Source: Bacillota bacterium (lineage in GTDB: Bacteria > Bacillota > Sulfobacillia > JAJYWN01). From it: a DNA stretch of 53,148 bases. Under the pieces are notes generated by a model, which saw only the letters and a program-made list of their open reading frames with translations, did no database searches and was not told the origin of the DNA. Every line of letters starts with the position of its first letter. Within the stretch, counting starts at the first letter, position 1. The stretch is from assembly GCA_021791495.1 (NCBI GenBank), contig JAJYWN010000069.1:1-53148 (forward strand). The letters are read 5' to 3'. This document shows positions 43,945-53,099 of the stretch, piece after piece. Made by a program: the position numbers and the translations under genes.

Positions 43945-45585
43945 TTGTTCGACTACATCATCAGGGGCGGGTCGGTCGTCGATGGTTCGGGCTCCGGACC
44001 AGTTCGGGCCGATATCGCTATTTCCGGAGGCAAGATTTCGGCGGTGTCCCAAAATGGGGACATGGCCACCGCTCCCGCTCGCCGCACCATTGACGCCGGC
44101 GGGAAAGTGGTCTGCCCTGGTTTCGTTGACACCCACAGCCACTCCGACCTCATGGTCTTGAGCAGTCCGCCTCCCGAGCCGAAAGTGCGGCAGGGGGTGA
44201 CCACCGAGTTGCTCGCCCAGGACGGACTGTCGGTGGCGCCGGTGCCCGCCGGACGGCGGGAATTGCTGAAGCGGCTGGTTTCGAGCCTCTTGGGGCTGCC
44301 ACACGTGGACTGGACGTGGACTTCGTTCGCGGAATACCTGGCGGCGCTGGACCAAGGCGGCATGCCCGTCAACGCCGCCGCCCTGGTCCCGCACGGTCCC
44401 GTCCGCATGGCCGCCATGGGTATGGAAGCCCGCGTGGCGACCGACTCCGAGTTGGCCACCATGGAGGGAATCCTGGACGAGGCCCTGTCGGCCGGCGGCG
44501 TGGGCCTGTCCACCGGGATGATTTACCCGCCGTGTTCTTTCGCCGATGACCGGGAACTCATCGCCCTTTGCCGCGTAACAGCCCGACATGGGGGCATTTT
44601 CGTCATCCATATGCGGAACGAGAGCGAGCTTCTCATCCAATCGGTGAAGGAAACTCTGGCCATCGCTGAGCAGTCGGGTGTGGCTCTCCACATCTCGCAC
44701 CTGAAGGCCGCCGGGCATGCCGCCTGGCCGAAGGTGGACGAGATGATGACGCTCCTTTCCGACGCTCTGGCCCGGGGCATGAAGGTGACCTGGGACCAGT
44801 ACCCGTACACCGCCGGTTGCACGGTCCTGACGGCGACGCTCCCACCTTGGACGCTCGAGGGCGGGACGCCGGCCCTGCTGGCCCGTTTGGCTTCTCCGGA
44901 AGGCCGGCGGCGCATCAACCAAGAATTCGCGGAGTCGCCCAGGATGTCGCCTGCCGAGAGGGCCGAACGGGGCATTGCCACCTGGGACAATCGCAAGCAC
45001 ACTCTGGGCTGGGAACACATCACCATATCCTCGGTGAAGAGCCAGGCGAACAGATGGTGTCAGGGGCTGTCCATCGCTGAGATCGCCCAGCGGCGCGGCC
45101 AAACCTCCGAGGATACCATCATGGACCTGCTCCTGGAAGAGGACGCCGATGTCAACATGATCCTCCACCAAGGGAGCGAGGAGCGGATGAAGCAGATCAT
45201 GGCCGCTCCCGAGACCATCGCTTGCACCGACGGGATCTACGGAGGCAAGCCACACCCCCGGTTATTCGGGTCCTACCCGCGCATCCTGGGGAAGTACGTC
45301 CGCGACGAGAAAGTGGTTTCGCTCCCCGAAGCGATCAGGAAGATGACCTCGCTCCCTGCCCAGCTACTCGGTCTGTCCGGACGCGGACTCATCAAACAAG
45401 GATACTCCGCCGACGTGGTCGTCTTCGACCCGGCGACGGTGATCGACCGCGGGACCTACGAGCGTCCCGACATACATCCTGTCGGCATCGACTATGTACT
45501 CGTCAACGGCGCCCTCGCCGTTGACGGAGGGGCCTACACCGGGGCCAGGGCGGGGAGGGCGCTGGTGCGTCAGTTCCCAGCTTAG
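43945..45585 (+). CDS. N-acyl-D-amino-acid deacylase (D-aminoacylase)
   Basis: Amidohydrolase that releases D-amino acids from N-acyl derivatives; 546 residues. It begins LFDYIIRGGSVVDGSGSGPV, with metal ligands in GFVDTHSHSDLM, VALHISHLK (two His) and CTDGIYGGKPHPRLFGS, and the C-terminal ADVVVFDPATV strand of the composite domain. The TTG at 43945 lies seven bases after AAGGGG. It precedes the unknown membrane operon, which is followed by an M20 amidohydrolase. The 242 bases upstream show a TTGACA at 43814 but no good -10. Confidence 0.93.
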   Translation: MFDYIIRGGSVVDGSGSGPVRADIAISGGKISAVSQNGDMATAPARRTIDAGGKVVCPGFVDTHSHSDLMVLSSPPPEPKVRQGVTTELLAQDGLSVAPVPAGRRELLKRLVSSLLGLPHVDWTWTSFAEYLAALDQGGMPVNAAALVPHGPVRMAAMGMEARVATDSELATMEGILDEALSAGGVGLSTGMIYPPCSFADDRELIALCRVTARHGGIFVIHMRNESELLIQSVKETLAIAEQSGVALHISHLKAAGHAAWPKVDEMMTLLSDALARGMKVTWDQYPYTAGCTVLTATLPPWTLEGGTPALLARLASPEGRRRINQEFAESPRMSPAERAERGIATWDNRKHTLGWEHITISSVKSQANRWCQGLSIAEIAQRRGQTSEDTIMDLLLEEDADVNMILHQGSEERMKQIMAAPETIACTDGIYGGKPHPRLFGSYPRILGKYVRDEKVVSLPEAIRKMTSLPAQLLGLSGRGLIKQGYSADVVVFDPATVIDRGTYERPDIHPVGIDYVLVNGALAVDGGAYTGARAGRALVRQFPA

Positions 45586-45807: not shown

Positions 45808-46581
45808 TTGACAGCGGGAAGAATCTTCACCTTCTGGTTCCTGATCTTCACCTTCGCGGCCGTTTACTATTTCATGGAACGGGCGAAGAAGGGGAACCTC
45901 CCGGGCGTGCGGCCCATCGCCGGCCTGGCGGCCCTGGATGAGGCTGTCGGCCGCGCGACAGAGTTGGGACGCCCGGTATTCTTTGTGCCGGGCCGCGCGG
46001 AGATCAACTCCGCCGATGCTGCCCAGACCCTGGCCGCGCTTGAGATCTTGTCTCACGTGGCCGAGAAGACGGCGGCGTATGACACGGGCCTTATCACGGC
46101 CGTGGCTGCCCCGAACACCTATCCGGTGGCCCAGGAAGTGGTGCGCGAGAGCTATTTGAAAGTGGGTAAACCGGACGCCTACGATCCAGACATGGTCCAA
46201 TTCTACTCGTCCGAGCAGTTCGCTTTCGGATCGGCCTGCCTGGGTGTCATGATGCGTGAGAAAGTCGCGGCCGCGGTCATGGTCGGTTTCTTCCAGGCCG
46301 AATCGCTGCTCCTGGCCGAAGGCGCCAACCAGGCCGGGGCCATCTCCATTTCCGGGTGCACGCGCTTGTACCAGATTCCCTTCTTCGTTGTGGCCTGCGA
46401 CTACACGCTTATCGGCGAAGAGTTGTTCGCTGGCGGCGCCTACTTGACGAAGAACCCAATCAAACTGGGCAGCATGCAAGGTCAGGACTTGGCCAAGCTT
46501 GTCTCCGTGCTTTTCGTGGCCCTCGGGGCCATCCTGGAGACCTTCGGCAATCACAGCCTGACCCAGCTGTTCAAAAAGTAG
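45808..46581 (+). CDS. membrane operon protein 1 (DUF6754-like)
   Basis: A 257-residue protein with an N-terminal helix (IFTFWFLIFTFAAVYYFM), a central soluble alpha/beta domain (VRPIAGLAALDEAVGRATEL, GRPVFFVPGRAEINSADAAQ, AAVAAPNTYPVAQEVVRESY) and hydrophobic stretches near VMMREKVAAAVMVGFFQAES and a C-terminal helix. I recall this pattern as DUF6754, function unknown; that name is tentative. The TTG at 45808 follows GAGG by eight bases. It heads four tightly spaced genes, with 15 bases to the next. Confidence 0.75.
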   Translation: MTAGRIFTFWFLIFTFAAVYYFMERAKKGNLPGVRPIAGLAALDEAVGRATELGRPVFFVPGRAEINSADAAQTLAALEILSHVAEKTAAYDTGLITAVAAPNTYPVAQEVVRESYLKVGKPDAYDPDMVQFYSSEQFAFGSACLGVMMREKVAAAVMVGFFQAESLLLAEGANQAGAISISGCTRLYQIPFFVVACDYTLIGEELFAGGAYLTKNPIKLGSMQGQDLAKLVSVLFVALGAILETFGNHSLTQLFKK

Positions 46582-46596
46582 AGGGGAGGTGTCGAC

Positions 46597-47214
46597 TTGA
46601 AAAGAGAGTTGCCCCTTGGCATCACCGCCGTGGTGGGGTTCCTTTTCCTCGTGCAGTACTTCTTCAAGATAGCGATCCTGAAATCAATGACCGATGAACT
46701 TACGGACTGGGGTACCATCGTGTCTGCTTTCGCCGCCCTCCTGGCGGCCGCCGGTCTTTACAAGATCCACCTTGAGAAGATCGCGCGCCGGAAGGGCCCC
46801 TGGGAGATGAGCATCGTCCTGGTCTTGGTCATGACCGCCTTCATCATCTTCGGCGTGTTCCTCGGCCAGAAATCGGCGCCCTACCTGTTCTTGTCCAATC
46901 AGGTCTTGGTTCCGCTCTCAGCGGCTATCTTCTCTCTGTTGATCTTCTACATTGGGTCGGCGGCCTTCCGTGCGTTCCGCCTGCGTAACCTCGAGGCTGG
47001 ACTCCTTCTCGGCTCGGGCTTCCTGGTCATGCTCGGACGCGCCCCCATCGGCGAAGTCGTGTGGAAGAAGTTCCCGGTCATCGCCGACTGGCTTATGAAA
47101 TGGCCGAACCTCGCCGGTAACCGCGGTGTCCTGATCGGCGCGTCCATTGGCTCCATCGCCATTGGCCTGCGCATCCTGGTCGGCATCGACCGCGGCCACC
47201 TGGGCCAGGATTAG
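46597..47214 (+). CDS. membrane operon protein 2, unknown
   Basis: A 205-residue integral membrane protein with about six helices, for example GITAVVGFLFLVQYFFKIAI, WGTIVSAFAALLAAAGLYKI, MSIVLVLVMTAFIIFGVFLG and a final IGASIGSIAIGLRILVGI. A short cytoplasmic loop contains EKIARRKGPWEM, and a soluble loop lies near VVWKKFPVIADWLMKWPNLA. I do not recognise the family. The TTG at 46597 has GGAGG seven bases upstream. Confidence 0.8.
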   Translation: MKRELPLGITAVVGFLFLVQYFFKIAILKSMTDELTDWGTIVSAFAALLAAAGLYKIHLEKIARRKGPWEMSIVLVLVMTAFIIFGVFLGQKSAPYLFLSNQVLVPLSAAIFSLLIFYIGSAAFRAFRLRNLEAGLLLGSGFLVMLGRAPIGEVVWKKFPVIADWLMKWPNLAGNRGVLIGASIGSIAIGLRILVGIDRGHLGQD

Positions 47215-47227
47215 GGGGGATGAGACC

Positions 47228-48046
47228 ATGAATGTACTGCGAAATCTTGACCGCCGTGTCATCTACGTCCTCCTTTTCCTGCTCGTCCTGTACCCCTTGG
47301 TGAAGCCCATGGGGCTGCCGGTTTCCGTAGGGCCCTGGACGCAGGGCAGTTTCGACTACATTAACAACCTGAAGGCCGGCGACCTCGTGGTCGTGTCCTT
47401 CGACTACTCCTCCGGCGGGGCGCCCGATGTGGACCCGCAGGCCGTGGTCGTAGTGAAACACCTGTTCAAGAAGGGCGTGCGGATTGTGGGCACGGCCTTC
47501 GTTGACCAGGGCGTGTTGTTCGCCAACAAGGTCTTCGATGCGTGGCAGAAGCAAGGGAAGAAGCCTGGCGTGGACTTCGTCAACCTCGGCTACCTGGCCG
47601 GAGGCGAGACCGCGGTGGCCGCCTTCGGAAATAACCCCCTGAAGGCGTTCCCCAAGGACAACAACGGGAACGACACGGCCAGCATGCCGATTATGCAGGG
47701 AGTCAAGACGGCGGCCGATTTCAAACTCATCGCCGCCTTCGCCACCGGCGCCCCCGGCCCGTCCGAGTGGGTCCGCCAGGTGGTCACGAAGTACAAGACC
47801 CCTTACATGGCCGGCCTGGTTACCGTCATGGCTCCGGGCGCGGAACCATACCTCCAGTCCAAACAGATGATCGGTCTTTTGGCCGGTCTGCGTGGCGCGG
47901 CTGAATACGAGACCGCTCTGAAGGAACCGGGTACCGCCGCCGCCGGCATGGACGCGCAGTCCATGGGGCACGTCGTGATTATCGTCTTCGTCATCTTGGG
48001 TAACATCCTGTACCTCCTGGATAAGCCCAAGAAGGCGAAGGCTTAG
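47228..48046 (+). CDS. membrane operon protein 3, unknown
   Basis: A 272-residue protein with one helix at each end (RVIYVLLFLLVLYPLVKPMG and VVIIVFVILGNILYLLD) enclosing a soluble alpha/beta domain that should face outside. That domain reads FDYINNLKAGDLVVVSFDYS, VVVVKHLFKKGVRIVGTAFV and PGVDFVNLGYLAGGETAVAA, a Rossmann-like alternation of hydrophobic strands and helices. I see no standard catalytic motif. GGGGGGATG precedes the ATG at 47228, 13 bases after the previous stop. Confidence 0.8.
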   Translation: MNVLRNLDRRVIYVLLFLLVLYPLVKPMGLPVSVGPWTQGSFDYINNLKAGDLVVVSFDYSSGGAPDVDPQAVVVVKHLFKKGVRIVGTAFVDQGVLFANKVFDAWQKQGKKPGVDFVNLGYLAGGETAVAAFGNNPLKAFPKDNNGNDTASMPIMQGVKTAADFKLIAAFATGAPGPSEWVRQVVTKYKTPYMAGLVTVMAPGAEPYLQSKQMIGLLAGLRGAAEYETALKEPGTAAAGMDAQSMGHVVIIVFVILGNILYLLDKPKKAKA

Positions 48047-48059
48047 GGGGTGGCGTAAC

Positions 48060-48683
48060 ATGACTACAAACTGGGAAGTCTGGGTATCGGCGCTCCTGAC
48101 CCTCGGCGCGTACTCGATCCTGTTCAGCGAGAACAAGTTCTTCCAGCTCGTCGAACACATTTTCGTCGGTGTGGGCGCTGGTTTCGCCGTGGTGGTCAAC
48201 TACTATAGTATCGTCAATAAAGGCATTAAGCCCATGACGGGCAAGGGCGAGTGGTGGCTGATCATCCCGCTCCTGATCGGCGTCATGCTTTTCGGACGTT
48301 TCGTCAAAGGCATGGCCTGGATCACCCGCATTCCCATCTCGCTCCTGGTCGGTATCGGTGTCGCTCTGGCCCTCCGCGGCGCCGTCCAGGCGGAGCTGGT
48401 CCAGCAGATTTCCGCGAACTTCATCAACGTGGTCGGCAAGACGCCGGGGGCCACCATCAACAACCTCGTCATGGTGGTGGGCACCATAGGCACCATCATG
48501 TACTTCTTCTTCACCTACAAGCAGACCCCCATCGTGATGGCCGGGTCGGCGGTCGGCAAGTGGATCATGATGGTTGCCTTTGGCGCCGCTTTCGGAAACG
48601 CCGTCCAGGGCCGTATTTCGCTGCTCATCAGCCGGCTGCAATACCTGTTCGGCACCTGGATTCACCTCATCCCGACCAAGTAG
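48060..48683 (+). CDS. membrane operon protein 4, unknown
   Basis: A 207-residue polytopic membrane protein with about six helices. It opens TTNWEVWVSALLTLGAYSIL, with a polar stretch FSENKFFQLVEHIFVGVGAG near the first helices, and has TINNLVMVVGTIGTIMYFFF later. The Glu-Asn-Lys and His residues near helix 2 could line a path or site, but this is speculation. It ends the operon; 13 bases separate it from gene 3. Confidence 0.8.
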   Translation: MTTNWEVWVSALLTLGAYSILFSENKFFQLVEHIFVGVGAGFAVVVNYYSIVNKGIKPMTGKGEWWLIIPLLIGVMLFGRFVKGMAWITRIPISLLVGIGVALALRGAVQAELVQQISANFINVVGKTPGATINNLVMVVGTIGTIMYFFFTYKQTPIVMAGSAVGKWIMMVAFGAAFGNAVQGRISLLISRLQYLFGTWIHLIPTK

Positions 48684-48718
48684 GTCTGGTGCATTCAGGG
48701 TAAGGCATGCGGACAAGA

Positions 48719-48760
48719 GGGGCGGGAGCGACGACCTGCGGGTGCGCCGTTCCCGTCCCT
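48719..48760 (+). terminator. terminator after the membrane operon
   Basis: GGGGCGGGAGCG pairs with CGTTCCCGTCCC across a 17-base loop and is followed by TTCCTTGTT. It closes the four-gene unit before the M20 gene. Confidence 0.6.
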
Positions 48761-48822
48761 TCCTTGTTACCATAATCTCTCTTCACCCCAATACTTGCGG
48801 ATAGGGAAAGGGGCGGCTTTTC

Positions 48823-50022
48823 ATGAGCGCCAACGTAGCGGACCTGAAGAAGAAAGTCTGCGCCGAAGTGGACCGCCTGGCACCGGAGCTGTACGACATC
48901 GCCAGGCGAATGTACGAGAATCCCGAACTGGGGCATCAGGAACGGGCGTCTTCCGCCATGCTCTGTGATATGGCCGAGAAGTACGGCATGATGGTGAAGC
49001 GGAAGGTGGCGGGGATGGAGACGTCCTTCGTCGCCACCGCCGAAGGCGGAGGGGGAGCCGGCGCGCACATCGGTATCTTGGCGGAATACGATGCGCTCCC
49101 CGATATCGGACACGGCTGTGGCCACAACATCATCGGCACCGCCAGCACCGGCGCGGCCTTGGCCTTGAAGGCCGTCCTGCCCGAACTTCCGGGGCGGGTA
49201 ACCCTTTTCGGTACCCCAGCCGAGGAAGGCGTGGTGGATAACGCGGGCGGAAAAGTCTTGATGACCAATGCCGGCCTGTTCAACGACGTGGACGCCGCCA
49301 TGTGCGTCCACCCGTCGAGCCAGACCATGCTGGGCACTTCCTCAACGGCCCGGTATGCGTTCGAAGTCTCTTTCAAGGGCAAACCGGCCCACGCCGCCGG
49401 GTCCCCTCATGAGGGCATCAACGCCCTGGACGCCTTGCTCCTCATGTACAGCGGCATCAACGCCCTGCGGCAGCATGTGAAGGAAGACGTCCGGATCCAC
49501 GGCATCATCACCAAGGGCGGGGTCGCCCCAAACATCGTCCCCGAGTTCACTCAGGGCCGTTTCTACGTGCGGGCCAACGACCGGAACTATCTCAAGGATG
49601 TCATCGCGAAAGTTGAAAACTGCGCCCGCGCCGGGGCGTTGGCCACCGGGGCCACCGTCAGCTTCCGGCAGACGGCTTTGACCTATGAGAACATGCTGAA
49701 TAACGATGTCCTGGGCGAGGCCTACAAAGCGAACTTGGAGTCGCTGGGCGTGAAAGTACACCCGGCGCCGACCAAGAGCGGCGGGGGGTCCACCGACATG
49801 GGCAACGTCTCACATGTCTGCCCGTCCATCCACCCCTACATCGGCATCTGCGGTCCCGGCATCGCCGGGCACAGCCGCGAGTTCGCCGACGCCACCATGA
49901 CGGAGGCCGGCCGGGCGGGCATGGTCGCCGCCGCCAAGGCCATGGCCATGACGGCCATCGATGTCCTGACCGACGCCGGACTGCGCGGGGCGGCGAAGAA
50001 GGAGTTCGAAGCCAGGAAGTAG
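48823..50022 (+). CDS. M20 family amidohydrolase (AbgB/M20D-like)
   Basis: Zinc-dependent amidase of about 399 residues that cleaves N-acyl or aminobenzoyl-glutamate-type amides. Metal and catalytic residues are in LAEYDALPDIGHGCGHNIIG, TLFGTPAEEGVVDNAGGKVL and CVHPSSQTMLG, and later GGGSTDMGNVSHVCPSIHPY. The dimerisation domain includes SFKGKPAHAAGSPHEGINAL. AAAGGGG precedes the ATG at 48823. With the D-aminoacylase upstream it suggests use of acylated amino acids or peptides. Its 3' end lies only 36 bases from a T-box core. Confidence 0.92.
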   Translation: MSANVADLKKKVCAEVDRLAPELYDIARRMYENPELGHQERASSAMLCDMAEKYGMMVKRKVAGMETSFVATAEGGGGAGAHIGILAEYDALPDIGHGCGHNIIGTASTGAALALKAVLPELPGRVTLFGTPAEEGVVDNAGGKVLMTNAGLFNDVDAAMCVHPSSQTMLGTSSTARYAFEVSFKGKPAHAAGSPHEGINALDALLLMYSGINALRQHVKEDVRIHGIITKGGVAPNIVPEFTQGRFYVRANDRNYLKDVIAKVENCARAGALATGATVSFRQTALTYENMLNNDVLGEAYKANLESLGVKVHPAPTKSGGGSTDMGNVSHVCPSIHPYIGICGPGIAGHSREFADATMTEAGRAGMVAAAKAMAMTAIDVLTDAGLRGAAKKEFEARK

Positions 50023-50178: not shown

Positions 50179-51138
50179 GTGTATGACCTTCGCGTGACGG
50201 TGGACGAGGTCAAGGGTTTCTGCGATCTTCCGATGAAACCAGGGGACTACTTCGAAGTGCGGGGCGGACGCATTACCATACCGACTGGAGGCCACATCTG
50301 CCTGTGGGCCCTGGCGGCGCTCCTCCCCATGTTCCCGGCCAAACAGCGGAACAGCGGCGAACCGAACGACTGGCTACCGCGCACCTCGCGCATGAGTTGC
50401 CCCGATCCCGATGGAATGGTCATCTATCGCATTGAACGTATCGAAGAAGAGAAGGAAGTCGACAAGGGGGGCGTGAGTCGCCCGACCGGGGCGATCACCG
50501 TTCAGCCGTCGATACCTCCGTCATCATCGCCATCGCCATCGCCATCGCCGTCGCCATCACCGTCAACGCCGGGGTCGCACCAGTCGGCGACGGCGCCGCC
50601 CCCCCGCCTCCTTGCTAAGGAGGCGAACTGCTCCGGGTGTCGTGCCTGTGAGCTGGCTTGTAGCGCGGCCCACGGCGGCCGCTTTCAGCCGTCGGTGTCC
50701 CGCATCAGGGTCCGTAAGCTAGAGGAGGCCGGGACCGACCGTCCGTACCCCTGCCGGCAATGCGGCCAGGCCCGCTGTGTCGAAGCCTGCCCCGAAGGGG
50801 CGCTATCTCGGCATCCGGTGACCAAGGCCGTCATCCTTGACGTGACTCTTTGCACGAAATGCGGACAGTGTGCGGCGGCGTGCGCTTTCGAGGCGGTGCC
50901 CATGAGCCCGATCGACGGCTACCCGCTCTTCTGTGACTTGTGTGGCGGCGACCCGGCCTGCGTCAAGCGGTGCGCCACAGGAGCCATCCGTTTCGGCAGG
51001 GCGGGTGACCGGCGTGAGCCGGCACCGGGCGAGCGGTTCCTGGCGCCGCCGCCCATGCCCGAGCCGCCTGAACCCGACTTGCCGCCCGGCCAGGCTGGAG
51101 CGTCCGCGCGCGGCGACCTAGGGGGTGAAGGACGGTGA
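50179..51138 (+). CDS. TIGR04076-like domain fused to four-cluster ferredoxin
   Basis: A 319-residue probable electron-transfer partner of AOR. Residues 1-88 (DLRVTVDEVKGFCDLPMKPG, GGHICLWALAALLPMF, SCPDPDGMVIYRIERI) match the small TIGR04076 family, which is usually a separate protein. A Ser/Pro linker (residues about 113-145), encoded by a CCATCG tandem repeat, joins it to a polyferredoxin with four 4Fe-4S motifs: CSGCRACELAC, CRQCGQARCVEAC, CTKCGQCAAAC and CDLCGGDPACVKRC. GTG at 50179 has only a weak AGGGCGG. Its stop overlaps the AOR start as GTGA. Confidence 0.82.
   Translation: MYDLRVTVDEVKGFCDLPMKPGDYFEVRGGRITIPTGGHICLWALAALLPMFPAKQRNSGEPNDWLPRTSRMSCPDPDGMVIYRIERIEEEKEVDKGGVSRPTGAITVQPSIPPSSSPSPSPSPSPSPSTPGSHQSATAPPPRLLAKEANCSGCRACELACSAAHGGRFQPSVSRIRVRKLEEAGTDRPYPCRQCGQARCVEACPEGALSRHPVTKAVILDVTLCTKCGQCAAACAFEAVPMSPIDGYPLFCDLCGGDPACVKRCATGAIRFGRAGDRREPAPGERFLAPPPMPEPPEPDLPPGQAGASARGDLGGEGR
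50520..50571 (+). repeat. CCATCG hexanucleotide tandem repeat in coding sequence
   Basis: Imperfect hexamer repeats (TCATCGCCATCGCCATCGCC and so on) spanning about 50 bases encode the Ser-Pro alternation of the linker between the TIGR04076 domain and the ferredoxin domain. Units are six bases, so length changes keep the frame. Confidence 0.8.
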
Positions 51139-53099
51139 CCAACCTGACACCAGCAACATCACCGACCTCCGCCTCACCCAGACGCGGTGGCCATGCCGGC
51201 CGCGTCCTGCTGGTGGACCTGACCGCCGGCCGGTCGCACATCGAGGCCCTTCCAGACCAGACGGCGCGCCAGTGGATCGGCGGTCGCGGGTTCAATGTCC
51301 GCCGCCTCTACGATGAAGTCGGCCCCGACACCGATCCATTGTCGCCGGAGAACGTCCTCCTTTTCGGCGTGGGCCCCTTGAACGGGACCACCTTCCCCGG
51401 CGCCGCGCGGATGAACGTCACGGCCAAGTCGCCGCAGACCGGCATCCTGGGGGACTCGAACTGCGGCGGCTTCTTCGGCAACGAGCTGAAATCCTGCGGT
51501 TTCGACCAATTGGTGCTCCGGGGGAAGGCGCCACGGCCTTCTTACCTGCTTCTGCGGGACGACAGCCTGGAGATCTTACCAGCCGGGGACCTCTGGGGCA
51601 TGGACGTGACCCAGGCCACGGCGGCCATCCGGCGGGCCCACGGCGACCGTGACGGGCGCCTGCAAGTGGCCTGCGTCGGGCCGGCCGCGGAGAAAGGCGT
51701 GCGCTTCGCCGGTATCTTCTGCAATCTCGCCCGTCCGGCGGCGCGTACCGGAATGGGTTCGGTGCTGGCATCAAAGAACATCAAGGCTATCGCCGTGGCG
51801 GGCACGGGCGGTGTGGAAGTGGCCGATCCCGATGCCTTCGCGCGGGTGGTGGAAGACACCGACCGCATCATCTATAACCACGAGGAATACGGCATCCGCT
51901 GCCAGTTGGGCACCACCAAGCTGGTAGCGGCCCTAAACCGCCTGGGCGCCCTAGCCACCAGGCATTTTCAGCAAGGCCGATTCGAGGAGGCCATCCCCGT
52001 CAGCGGCGAAGCCCTGGCCCGCCAGTTCAAGACCAAGTGGAAGGCCTGCGCTTCCTGCACCATCCCTTGCAGTCGCTTCTGGCGTCTGCCGGCCGACCCC
52101 GCCGACCAATTCGGCGGCTTGGCGGGGGAGGGACCCGAGTTCGAAGGCCTGGCTGGGTTCTCGTCCCGCGTGGGCAACGGAGACCTGCGGCTGGCATTGG
52201 CCGCCCACGACCTGTGCAACCGCCTGGGCATGGACGCTATTGCCACGTCCGAGGCCATTTCCTTCGCCATGGAATGCCGCCAGCGCGGCCTGCTCACTCC
52301 GGACGACGCCGATGGATTGTCTTTAGAGTGGGGCGACCCGGCCACCATCCTTGGTTTCATCCGGAAGATCGCCGCCCGGGAAGGCGTCGGCGACCTGTTC
52401 GCCGACGGCATCCGGGAGGCGGCGCGGAGGTTGGGCCGGGGCACGGAGGAGTTCGCCCTGCACGTGAAAGGGCTGGAAGTGTTCCAGGCCGACCCGCGCG
52501 GCATCAAGGGCTACGCCCTCGGCTACGCGGTGGCCAGCCGCGGCGGCGACCACCTGCGCTCAGAGCCCTGGTTCGAGTTCAGCGGGGACGCCGAAGCGGG
52601 CCGCCGGAGGTTTGGCCACCCGGACAGCGCTTTCCGCCTCAAGCACGGCGGCAAGGGCGCGCTGGTCAAGCACTTCGAGGAGTTGGCCGCGCTTTCTGAC
52701 TGCACTGAGGTCTGCAAGAACACGGCCGTGAACATGGAGGTCCTCACCTTCGAACGGGCGGCGCGGGCCTTGACGGCGGCCACCGGTTTCGACTACTCTC
52801 CGGAGGAAATCCAGCAGCGGTGTGAGGCCCTCATGAACCTGGAGCGCGCTTTCATCGTCCGGGAGGGAATCCGCCGGGCCGATGATGTGCTGCCCAAGAG
52901 GTTCACGGGCGAGCCCCTGCCCGCGGGGAGCGGCGAATCCACGGGTAGCACGGTGGGCCTAGACGAAATGCTGGACCAGTACTACGCCGCCCGCGGGTGG
53001 GACGGGGCGACGGGAATCCCGACCGAGGCCAAGCTACAGAGCCTCGGGCTGGGTGAAGTGGCGGCCGACCTGAAAGCGCATGGCGTGCCGATAGGCTAG
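51135..53099 (+). CDS. aor: aldehyde ferredoxin oxidoreductase
   Basis: Tungsten or molybdenum pterin enzyme of 654 residues that interconverts aldehydes and carboxylates with ferredoxin. It has IGGRGFNVRRLYDEVGPDTD, FGVGPLNGTTFPGAARMNV, AKSPQTGILGDSNCGGFFG, the cluster ligands CASCTIPC near residue 305 and a fourth Cys in SDCTEVCKNT near 525, and the pterin motif DLCNRLGMDAIA. GTG at 51135 overlaps the stop of the ferredoxin gene, so the two are translationally coupled. After its stop, GGCGGGGGTTTTCGCCCC at 53112 might be a weak terminator. It is evidence for anaerobic, tungsten-linked metabolism. Confidence 0.95.
   Translation: MTNLTPATSPTSASPRRGGHAGRVLLVDLTAGRSHIEALPDQTARQWIGGRGFNVRRLYDEVGPDTDPLSPENVLLFGVGPLNGTTFPGAARMNVTAKSPQTGILGDSNCGGFFGNELKSCGFDQLVLRGKAPRPSYLLLRDDSLEILPAGDLWGMDVTQATAAIRRAHGDRDGRLQVACVGPAAEKGVRFAGIFCNLARPAARTGMGSVLASKNIKAIAVAGTGGVEVADPDAFARVVEDTDRIIYNHEEYGIRCQLGTTKLVAALNRLGALATRHFQQGRFEEAIPVSGEALARQFKTKWKACASCTIPCSRFWRLPADPADQFGGLAGEGPEFEGLAGFSSRVGNGDLRLALAAHDLCNRLGMDAIATSEAISFAMECRQRGLLTPDDADGLSLEWGDPATILGFIRKIAAREGVGDLFADGIREAARRLGRGTEEFALHVKGLEVFQADPRGIKGYALGYAVASRGGDHLRSEPWFEFSGDAEAGRRRFGHPDSAFRLKHGGKGALVKHFEELAALSDCTEVCKNTAVNMEVLTFERAARALTAATGFDYSPEEIQQRCEALMNLERAFIVREGIRRADDVLPKRFTGEPLPAGSGESTGSTVGLDEMLDQYYAARGWDGATGIPTEAKLQSLGLGEVAADLKAHGVPIG

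Follow-up and report, generated by a model that had tools for sequence, protein, structure and literature searches.

Organization of the locus

The DNA analysed here, referred to as the window, is a stretch of 53,148 nucleotides from a Bacillota bacterium (contig JAJYWN010000069.1). It carries four consecutive genes on one strand, g1 to g4, with intergenic gaps of 15, 13 and 13 bp (Table 1). The original prediction, made from the letters of the sequence, described four genes spaced 13-15 bases apart, and its coordinates, sizes and spacing are all correct. A G-rich stretch resembling a ribosome site lies upstream of all four starts. The matches are good in g1 (GGTGAGGTG) and g2 (GGGGAGGTG) and plainer in g3 (GGGGGGATG) and g4 (GGGGGTGG). 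The hairpin that follows g4 is strong (MFE -43.4 kcal/mol, z -2.7). However, its T-run is interrupted (CCTTCCTTGTT) and it is absent from the list obtained in a terminator consensus scan, and for these two reasons its designation as a clear terminator was slightly overstated.

The two hydrolase genes expected around the quartet, one before and one after it, are present on the same strand. Further downstream, positions 50179-53099 include a combined TIGR04076 and 4Fe-4S ferredoxin-type protein, followed by a gene whose start is, by reading, similar to aldehyde:ferredoxin oxidoreductase.

Table 1. Features of the four-gene locus and its immediate flanks in the window
Feature	Position	Strand	Description	Basis or remark
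Amidohydrolase gene (D-aminoacylase-like)	43945-45585	same as quartet		222 bp from g1
g1	45808-46581	+	TTG start, 257 aa; TM helix, Rossmann-like domain (predicted cytoplasmic), TM helix	PF20539, AlphaFold, charge count
g2	46597-47214	+	TTG start, 205 aa; polytopic, ~6 TM helices, predicted N-in/C-in	without Pfam family
g3	47228-48046	+	ATG start, 272 aa; N-in TM helix, Rossmann-like domain (predicted extracytoplasmic), C-in TM helix	AlphaFold, topology
g4	48060-48683	+	ATG start, 207 aa; polytopic, 6-7 TM helices	without Pfam family
Hairpin 3' of g4, possible terminator	48717-48763 (approx.)	+		fold-energy computation; weak T-run
M20 gene	48823-50022	same as quartet		139 bp from g4

Families, topology and folds of the four proteins

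The product of g1, anticipated to be probably DUF6754-like, is a clear full-length member of this family (PF20539; E=2e-89, 299.6 bits against a gathering cut-off of 27, model 9-257 of 257). A weak match to IF-2B was also obtained in Pfam (E=0.097). The DUF6754 entry has no function in Pfam and covers one of the four subunits, while the other three are without a family: the window proteins g2, g3 and g4 gave no match above cut-off in Pfam and NCBIfam. Homologues of g3 (n=67) had no match in Pfam, and those of g2 and g4 showed no consistent Pfam family, only scattered matches in one or two members (e.g. TauE in 2/40). ABC ATPase and permease domains (PF00005, PF00664) were sought in g1-g4 and did not match. 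These results are in line with the earlier statement that no known transporter, signalling or catalytic motif is visible. Profile comparison detected no relation within the pairs g1/g3 and g2/g4, and no sequence relatives of g1 and g3 were found in the PDB.

Structural models, TM prediction and charge analysis agree with the expected composition of two polytopic proteins (g2 and g4) and two membrane-anchored alpha/beta proteins (g1 and g3). In confident AlphaFold models (pLDDT 91.9 for g1 and 96.1 for g3), each of the latter has a Rossmann-like domain flanked by one TM helix on either side. In the g1 family, the domain loop has 6.6 K/R residues close to the membrane, compared to about 1 at the ends, which predicts the domain inside. 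The g3 family has 3.3 and 3.5 K/R in its short ends, predicting the domain outside. Extracytoplasmic extensions preceding TM1 of g1 in genomes of the FCB group agree with a cytoplasmic g1 domain. The opposite placement of the two domains, cytoplasmic in g1 and extracytoplasmic in g3, is thus a well-supported prediction.

Foldseek searches with the g1 and g3 models revealed weak matches of Rossmann type only, and neither model had an outstanding match among known transporters or secretion complexes. The cytoplasmic domain of g1 superposes on the RCK domain of MthK, which forms a K+ channel gating ring (Z 9.5, rmsd 2.8, 114 residues), but this score is tied with those of unrelated Rossmann proteins (transhydrogenase, Z 9.6; PGK, SIS and many others) and no sequence relation was found, so that the two have only the fold in common. 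For g3, the best fold match is MT0777 (Z 10.2, rmsd 3.3, 140 residues), and eIF2B matches recurred in Foldseek. Likeness of g1 and g3 to Rossmann proteins shows no function.

Conservation of the four-gene unit

To survey the neighbourhoods of homologues, a test set beforehand, genome contigs were scanned with g1. This yielded 80 loci in Zixibacteria, Eisenbacteria, Cloacimonadota, Latescibacteria, Fermentibacteria, Neomarinimicrobiota, Fermentithermobacillaceae and others. The window itself and 20 further loci, drawn from its genome and its phylum, bring the set to 101. Genes were called by six-frame HMM search and codon-usage calling, as longest-ORF prediction overlooked some where GC content is high. 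Of the 101 loci, 98 contain one or more complete arrays in the fixed order g1-g2-g3-g4, across many phyla and far beyond chance. Two of the three exceptions (L015 and L075) are truncated by contig ends, and the third (L062) is a lone g1 with no g2-g4 nearby. The homologues are clustered and not scattered, and the predicted four-gene membrane operon is real.

The four genes occur in about equal numbers over these loci (138, 132, 132 and 132 copies of g1 to g4), and gaps of at most 60 bp separate g1-g2 in 122/137, g2-g3 in 127/136 and g3-g4 in 124/127 cases. Pairwise distance matrices of the four proteins from 119 quartets correlate with r 0.82-0.89, a level reached in none of 200 permutations, although such mirror-tree correlation partly reflects species relatedness. 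Conservation is highest in g1 (median identity 47%) and lowest in g3 (35%), which would fit an outer domain varying with its ligand. Taken as a whole, it is well supported that g1-g4 are one replicated functional unit, inherited together.

Two or three tandem quartets are common in zixibacterial loci. Tandem positions form separate clades, and the duplications are therefore old. Downstream of tandem quartets in Zixibacteria-type loci (L078-L085, L193), a basic protein of ~107 aa and a gene similar, by reading, to pyruvate phosphate dikinase recur.

Seven quartets are located on seven contigs in the genome of the window. At 10697-18326 of L115 (contig C4), an AstE/AspA-type deacylase and a series of creatininase-like genes are found upstream of one of the others, and at 7336-8196 of L116 (contig C50) a gene of the class A beta-lactamase family starts 20 bp after g4 of another. 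Among the 299 genomes of the window's phylum, DUF6754 was found in 25, in up to 8 copies, and g3 in 24, all of them within the DUF6754 set.

A partner module of MutL-type ATPase, c3 and k7

Beside quartets, two more families are found repeatedly: a MutL-type ATPase of ~610 aa and a protein of ~375 aa, here called c3. The ATPase matches the whole model of MutL/GlmL, the glutamate mutase accessory protein (PF13941; E=1.6e-128 and 429.8 bits in L131, above cut-off), a family known only as mutase accessory. It differs in its length (~610 rather than ~460 aa) and in being paired or fused with c3. In c3, a barrel-sandwich-like region is combined with a KOW-like end. The first weakly resembles the N-terminal barrel-sandwich domain of RnfC (PF13375; E=0.007, 16.8 bits, under the curated cut-off of 25.6), while the remaining RnfC parts are missing. 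No mutase was recognised on reading the gene lists of those MutL-c3 neighbourhoods that were inspected.

The genes for MutL and c3 adjoin each other with a median gap of 2 bp. One or the other lies within three genes of a quartet in 23/119 loci, on either side and on the same strand in 21. Single-protein MutL-c3 fusions of ~940-970 aa exist in five genomes (L181-L184 and L194), and in L194 the fusion gene immediately precedes a quartet and has the same orientation. A small protein of ~100 aa, k7, is encoded directly upstream of MutL in 18/27 cases and of g1 in 4/27, in a set that contains one unrelated S8 peptidase.

Across the 299 genomes of the window's phylum, strong matches to c3 occur in 24 and DUF6754 in 25, with 23 in common (Fisher p=5e-31, in a test that treats phylogenetically related genomes as independent). 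Exceptions are G009, with c3 and no g1, and G019 (78% complete) and G095, with g1 and no c3. Quartet genomes in other phyla have c3 in 40 of 42 cases, 39 of them full-length and one as a fusion only. The partnership of the quartet with MutL-c3 is thus well supported. Full-length uninterrupted c3 is present once per genome, compared to one to eight quartets in the sampled genomes, which would suit a shared module. The genome of the window has several MutL copies on other contigs, and its MutL-c3 pairs are found either on other contigs or at a distance of several kb from a quartet, so the module lies outside the window.

MutL by itself is not specific for the quartet, since it is found in 144/299 genomes of the window's phylum, mostly in shorter forms. 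MutL-c3 pairs also occur apart from quartets, in some cases next to FtsX-type ABC permeases, and the partnership may therefore be broader, with other partners possible. One such quartet-free pair in the window's genome (L146, contig C7, 50000-68000) lies amid FtsX/MacB-like ABC transporter genes.

Distribution and the possibility of an envelope machine

Outside the window's phylum, DUF6754 is present in 132/132 genomes of the phylum that contains Zixibacteria, mostly in 4-6 copies, and in 114/117 genomes of the phylum that contains Cloacimonadota. Many genomes of the latter phylum have a second g1 of ~1000 aa, in which the DUF6754 domain comes after a signal peptide and an extended extracytoplasmic segment; with such extensions, g1 proteins of FCB genomes reach a total length of 1151 aa. 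In Cloacimonadota-type genomes L191, L192 and L194, DUF6754 proteins of ~970-1150 aa carry a signal peptide as well as a long extracytoplasmic region that reads as FN3-like. Pfam search of the g1 extensions reported no FN3, however.

Because of the near-universality in two phyla, a cell-envelope complex for structure, assembly or export stays a serious rival to the transport reading given below, even if we regard it as somewhat unlikely. Here g1 and g3 would be scaffolds on the two faces of the membrane, and MutL an actin-like ATPase for driving or positioning, parallel in logic only to PilM with PilN/PilO. Retention of three ancient tandem quartet lineages in parallel and the large g1 extensions would suit such a machine, as would the weak matches of the partner MutL to MreB-like, Hydantoinase and BcrAD models. 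On the other hand, up to 8 dispersed and diverged copies in a Bacillota genome suit specificity variants better than one scaffold, and no secretion or pilus family recurs among the sampled quartet neighbours.

Genes neighbouring the quartets

The D-aminoacylase-like gene before the quartet and the M20 gene after it had suggested a complex handling peptides or acylated amino acids. Hydrolases of these types make up 3 of the 14 immediate flanks of the seven quartets in this genome (post hoc p=0.003), but they are very common there, with ~41 M20-type and ~42 amidohydrolase-type matches. In a comparison over 41 Bacillota loci, such hydrolase genes showed no enrichment up to two genes from a quartet (8/118, compared to 12/148 at 4-9 genes away; p=0.82), where 8/118 is a hand count among the top 25 families listed and overlapping Amidohydro_1/3 matches are not separated per protein. 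L124, which is the closest quartet of a different genome, is flanked by trigger-factor-like and other unrelated genes in place of these hydrolases. Lack of enrichment, high genomic abundance and the flanks of L124 lead us to regard the hydrolase link as unsupported, and a complex tied to these enzymes as improbable.

A membrane receptor or signalling complex, with g3 sensing outside and g1 reporting to histidine kinases, would draw on a different set of neighbours. In several Cloacimonadota, a TPR/HATPase protein (c6/k8 family) directly follows g4, the quartet on contig C7 of the window's genome is preceded by a PAS-kinase-like gene belonging to that cluster, and among the 118 neighbours sampled, 4 match HATPase_c and 4 match response regulators. 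Most quartets are nevertheless without an adjacent kinase, and kinase neighbours are a lineage-specific minority; in addition, a receptor would need less than a pair of polytopic subunits plus a partner ATPase. We consider this explanation unlikely.

Proposed role and significance

Function of the quartet is not well supported. Our leading, tentative reading is a membrane transport-type complex served by the MutL-c3 module, to which we assign a probability of roughly one in three (0.35). We infer that g1-g4 would form one physical complex in the inner membrane, in which polytopic g2 and g4 could constitute the membrane core or path; a solute or ion would most likely be moved across the membrane. 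The g3 domain may sense or bind a ligand outside, in FCB bacteria together with the extracytoplasmic extension of g1, and g1 may act as a cytoplasmic gate or ligand-binding regulator. The cytosolic MutL-type ATPase, of ASKHA fold, and c3, usually with k7, could act on the quartet as a shared module that energises or regulates it. Superposition of g1 on the RCK gating domain of MthK speaks for transport, even if tied with other matches. The transport reading is weakened because searches by family and by structure (g1 and g3) gave no match, or none that was outstanding, to any transporter, and because the operon is without a classical transport ATPase. Essentially universal presence in two phyla would also be unusual for a facultative nutrient transporter.

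No paper naming DUF6754, PF20539 or PF13941 was found in a search covering mostly non-subscription literature, broader searches were off-topic, and no known system of this composition was encountered. To the extent of this search, the predicted four-protein complex and its partner module appear to be new as a system. With odds slightly below even, they would be a core membrane machine not described before, near-universal in the Zixibacteria/Cloacimonadota part of the FCB group and shared by some Bacillota. Its four subunits would expose Rossmann-like domains on either face of the membrane, it would have been retained as up to three old tandem paralogues, and it would be coupled to the MutL-type ATPase module.

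The quartet defines three new protein families (g2, g3 and g4) and supplies a context for DUF6754, while long MutL-type ATPases gain a partner other than glutamate mutase. Since all sampled genomes of one phylum and nearly all of another have it, it likely does something basic there. If it is a transporter, its architecture would be new; if it is an envelope machine, it would be a core feature of large uncultured lineages.
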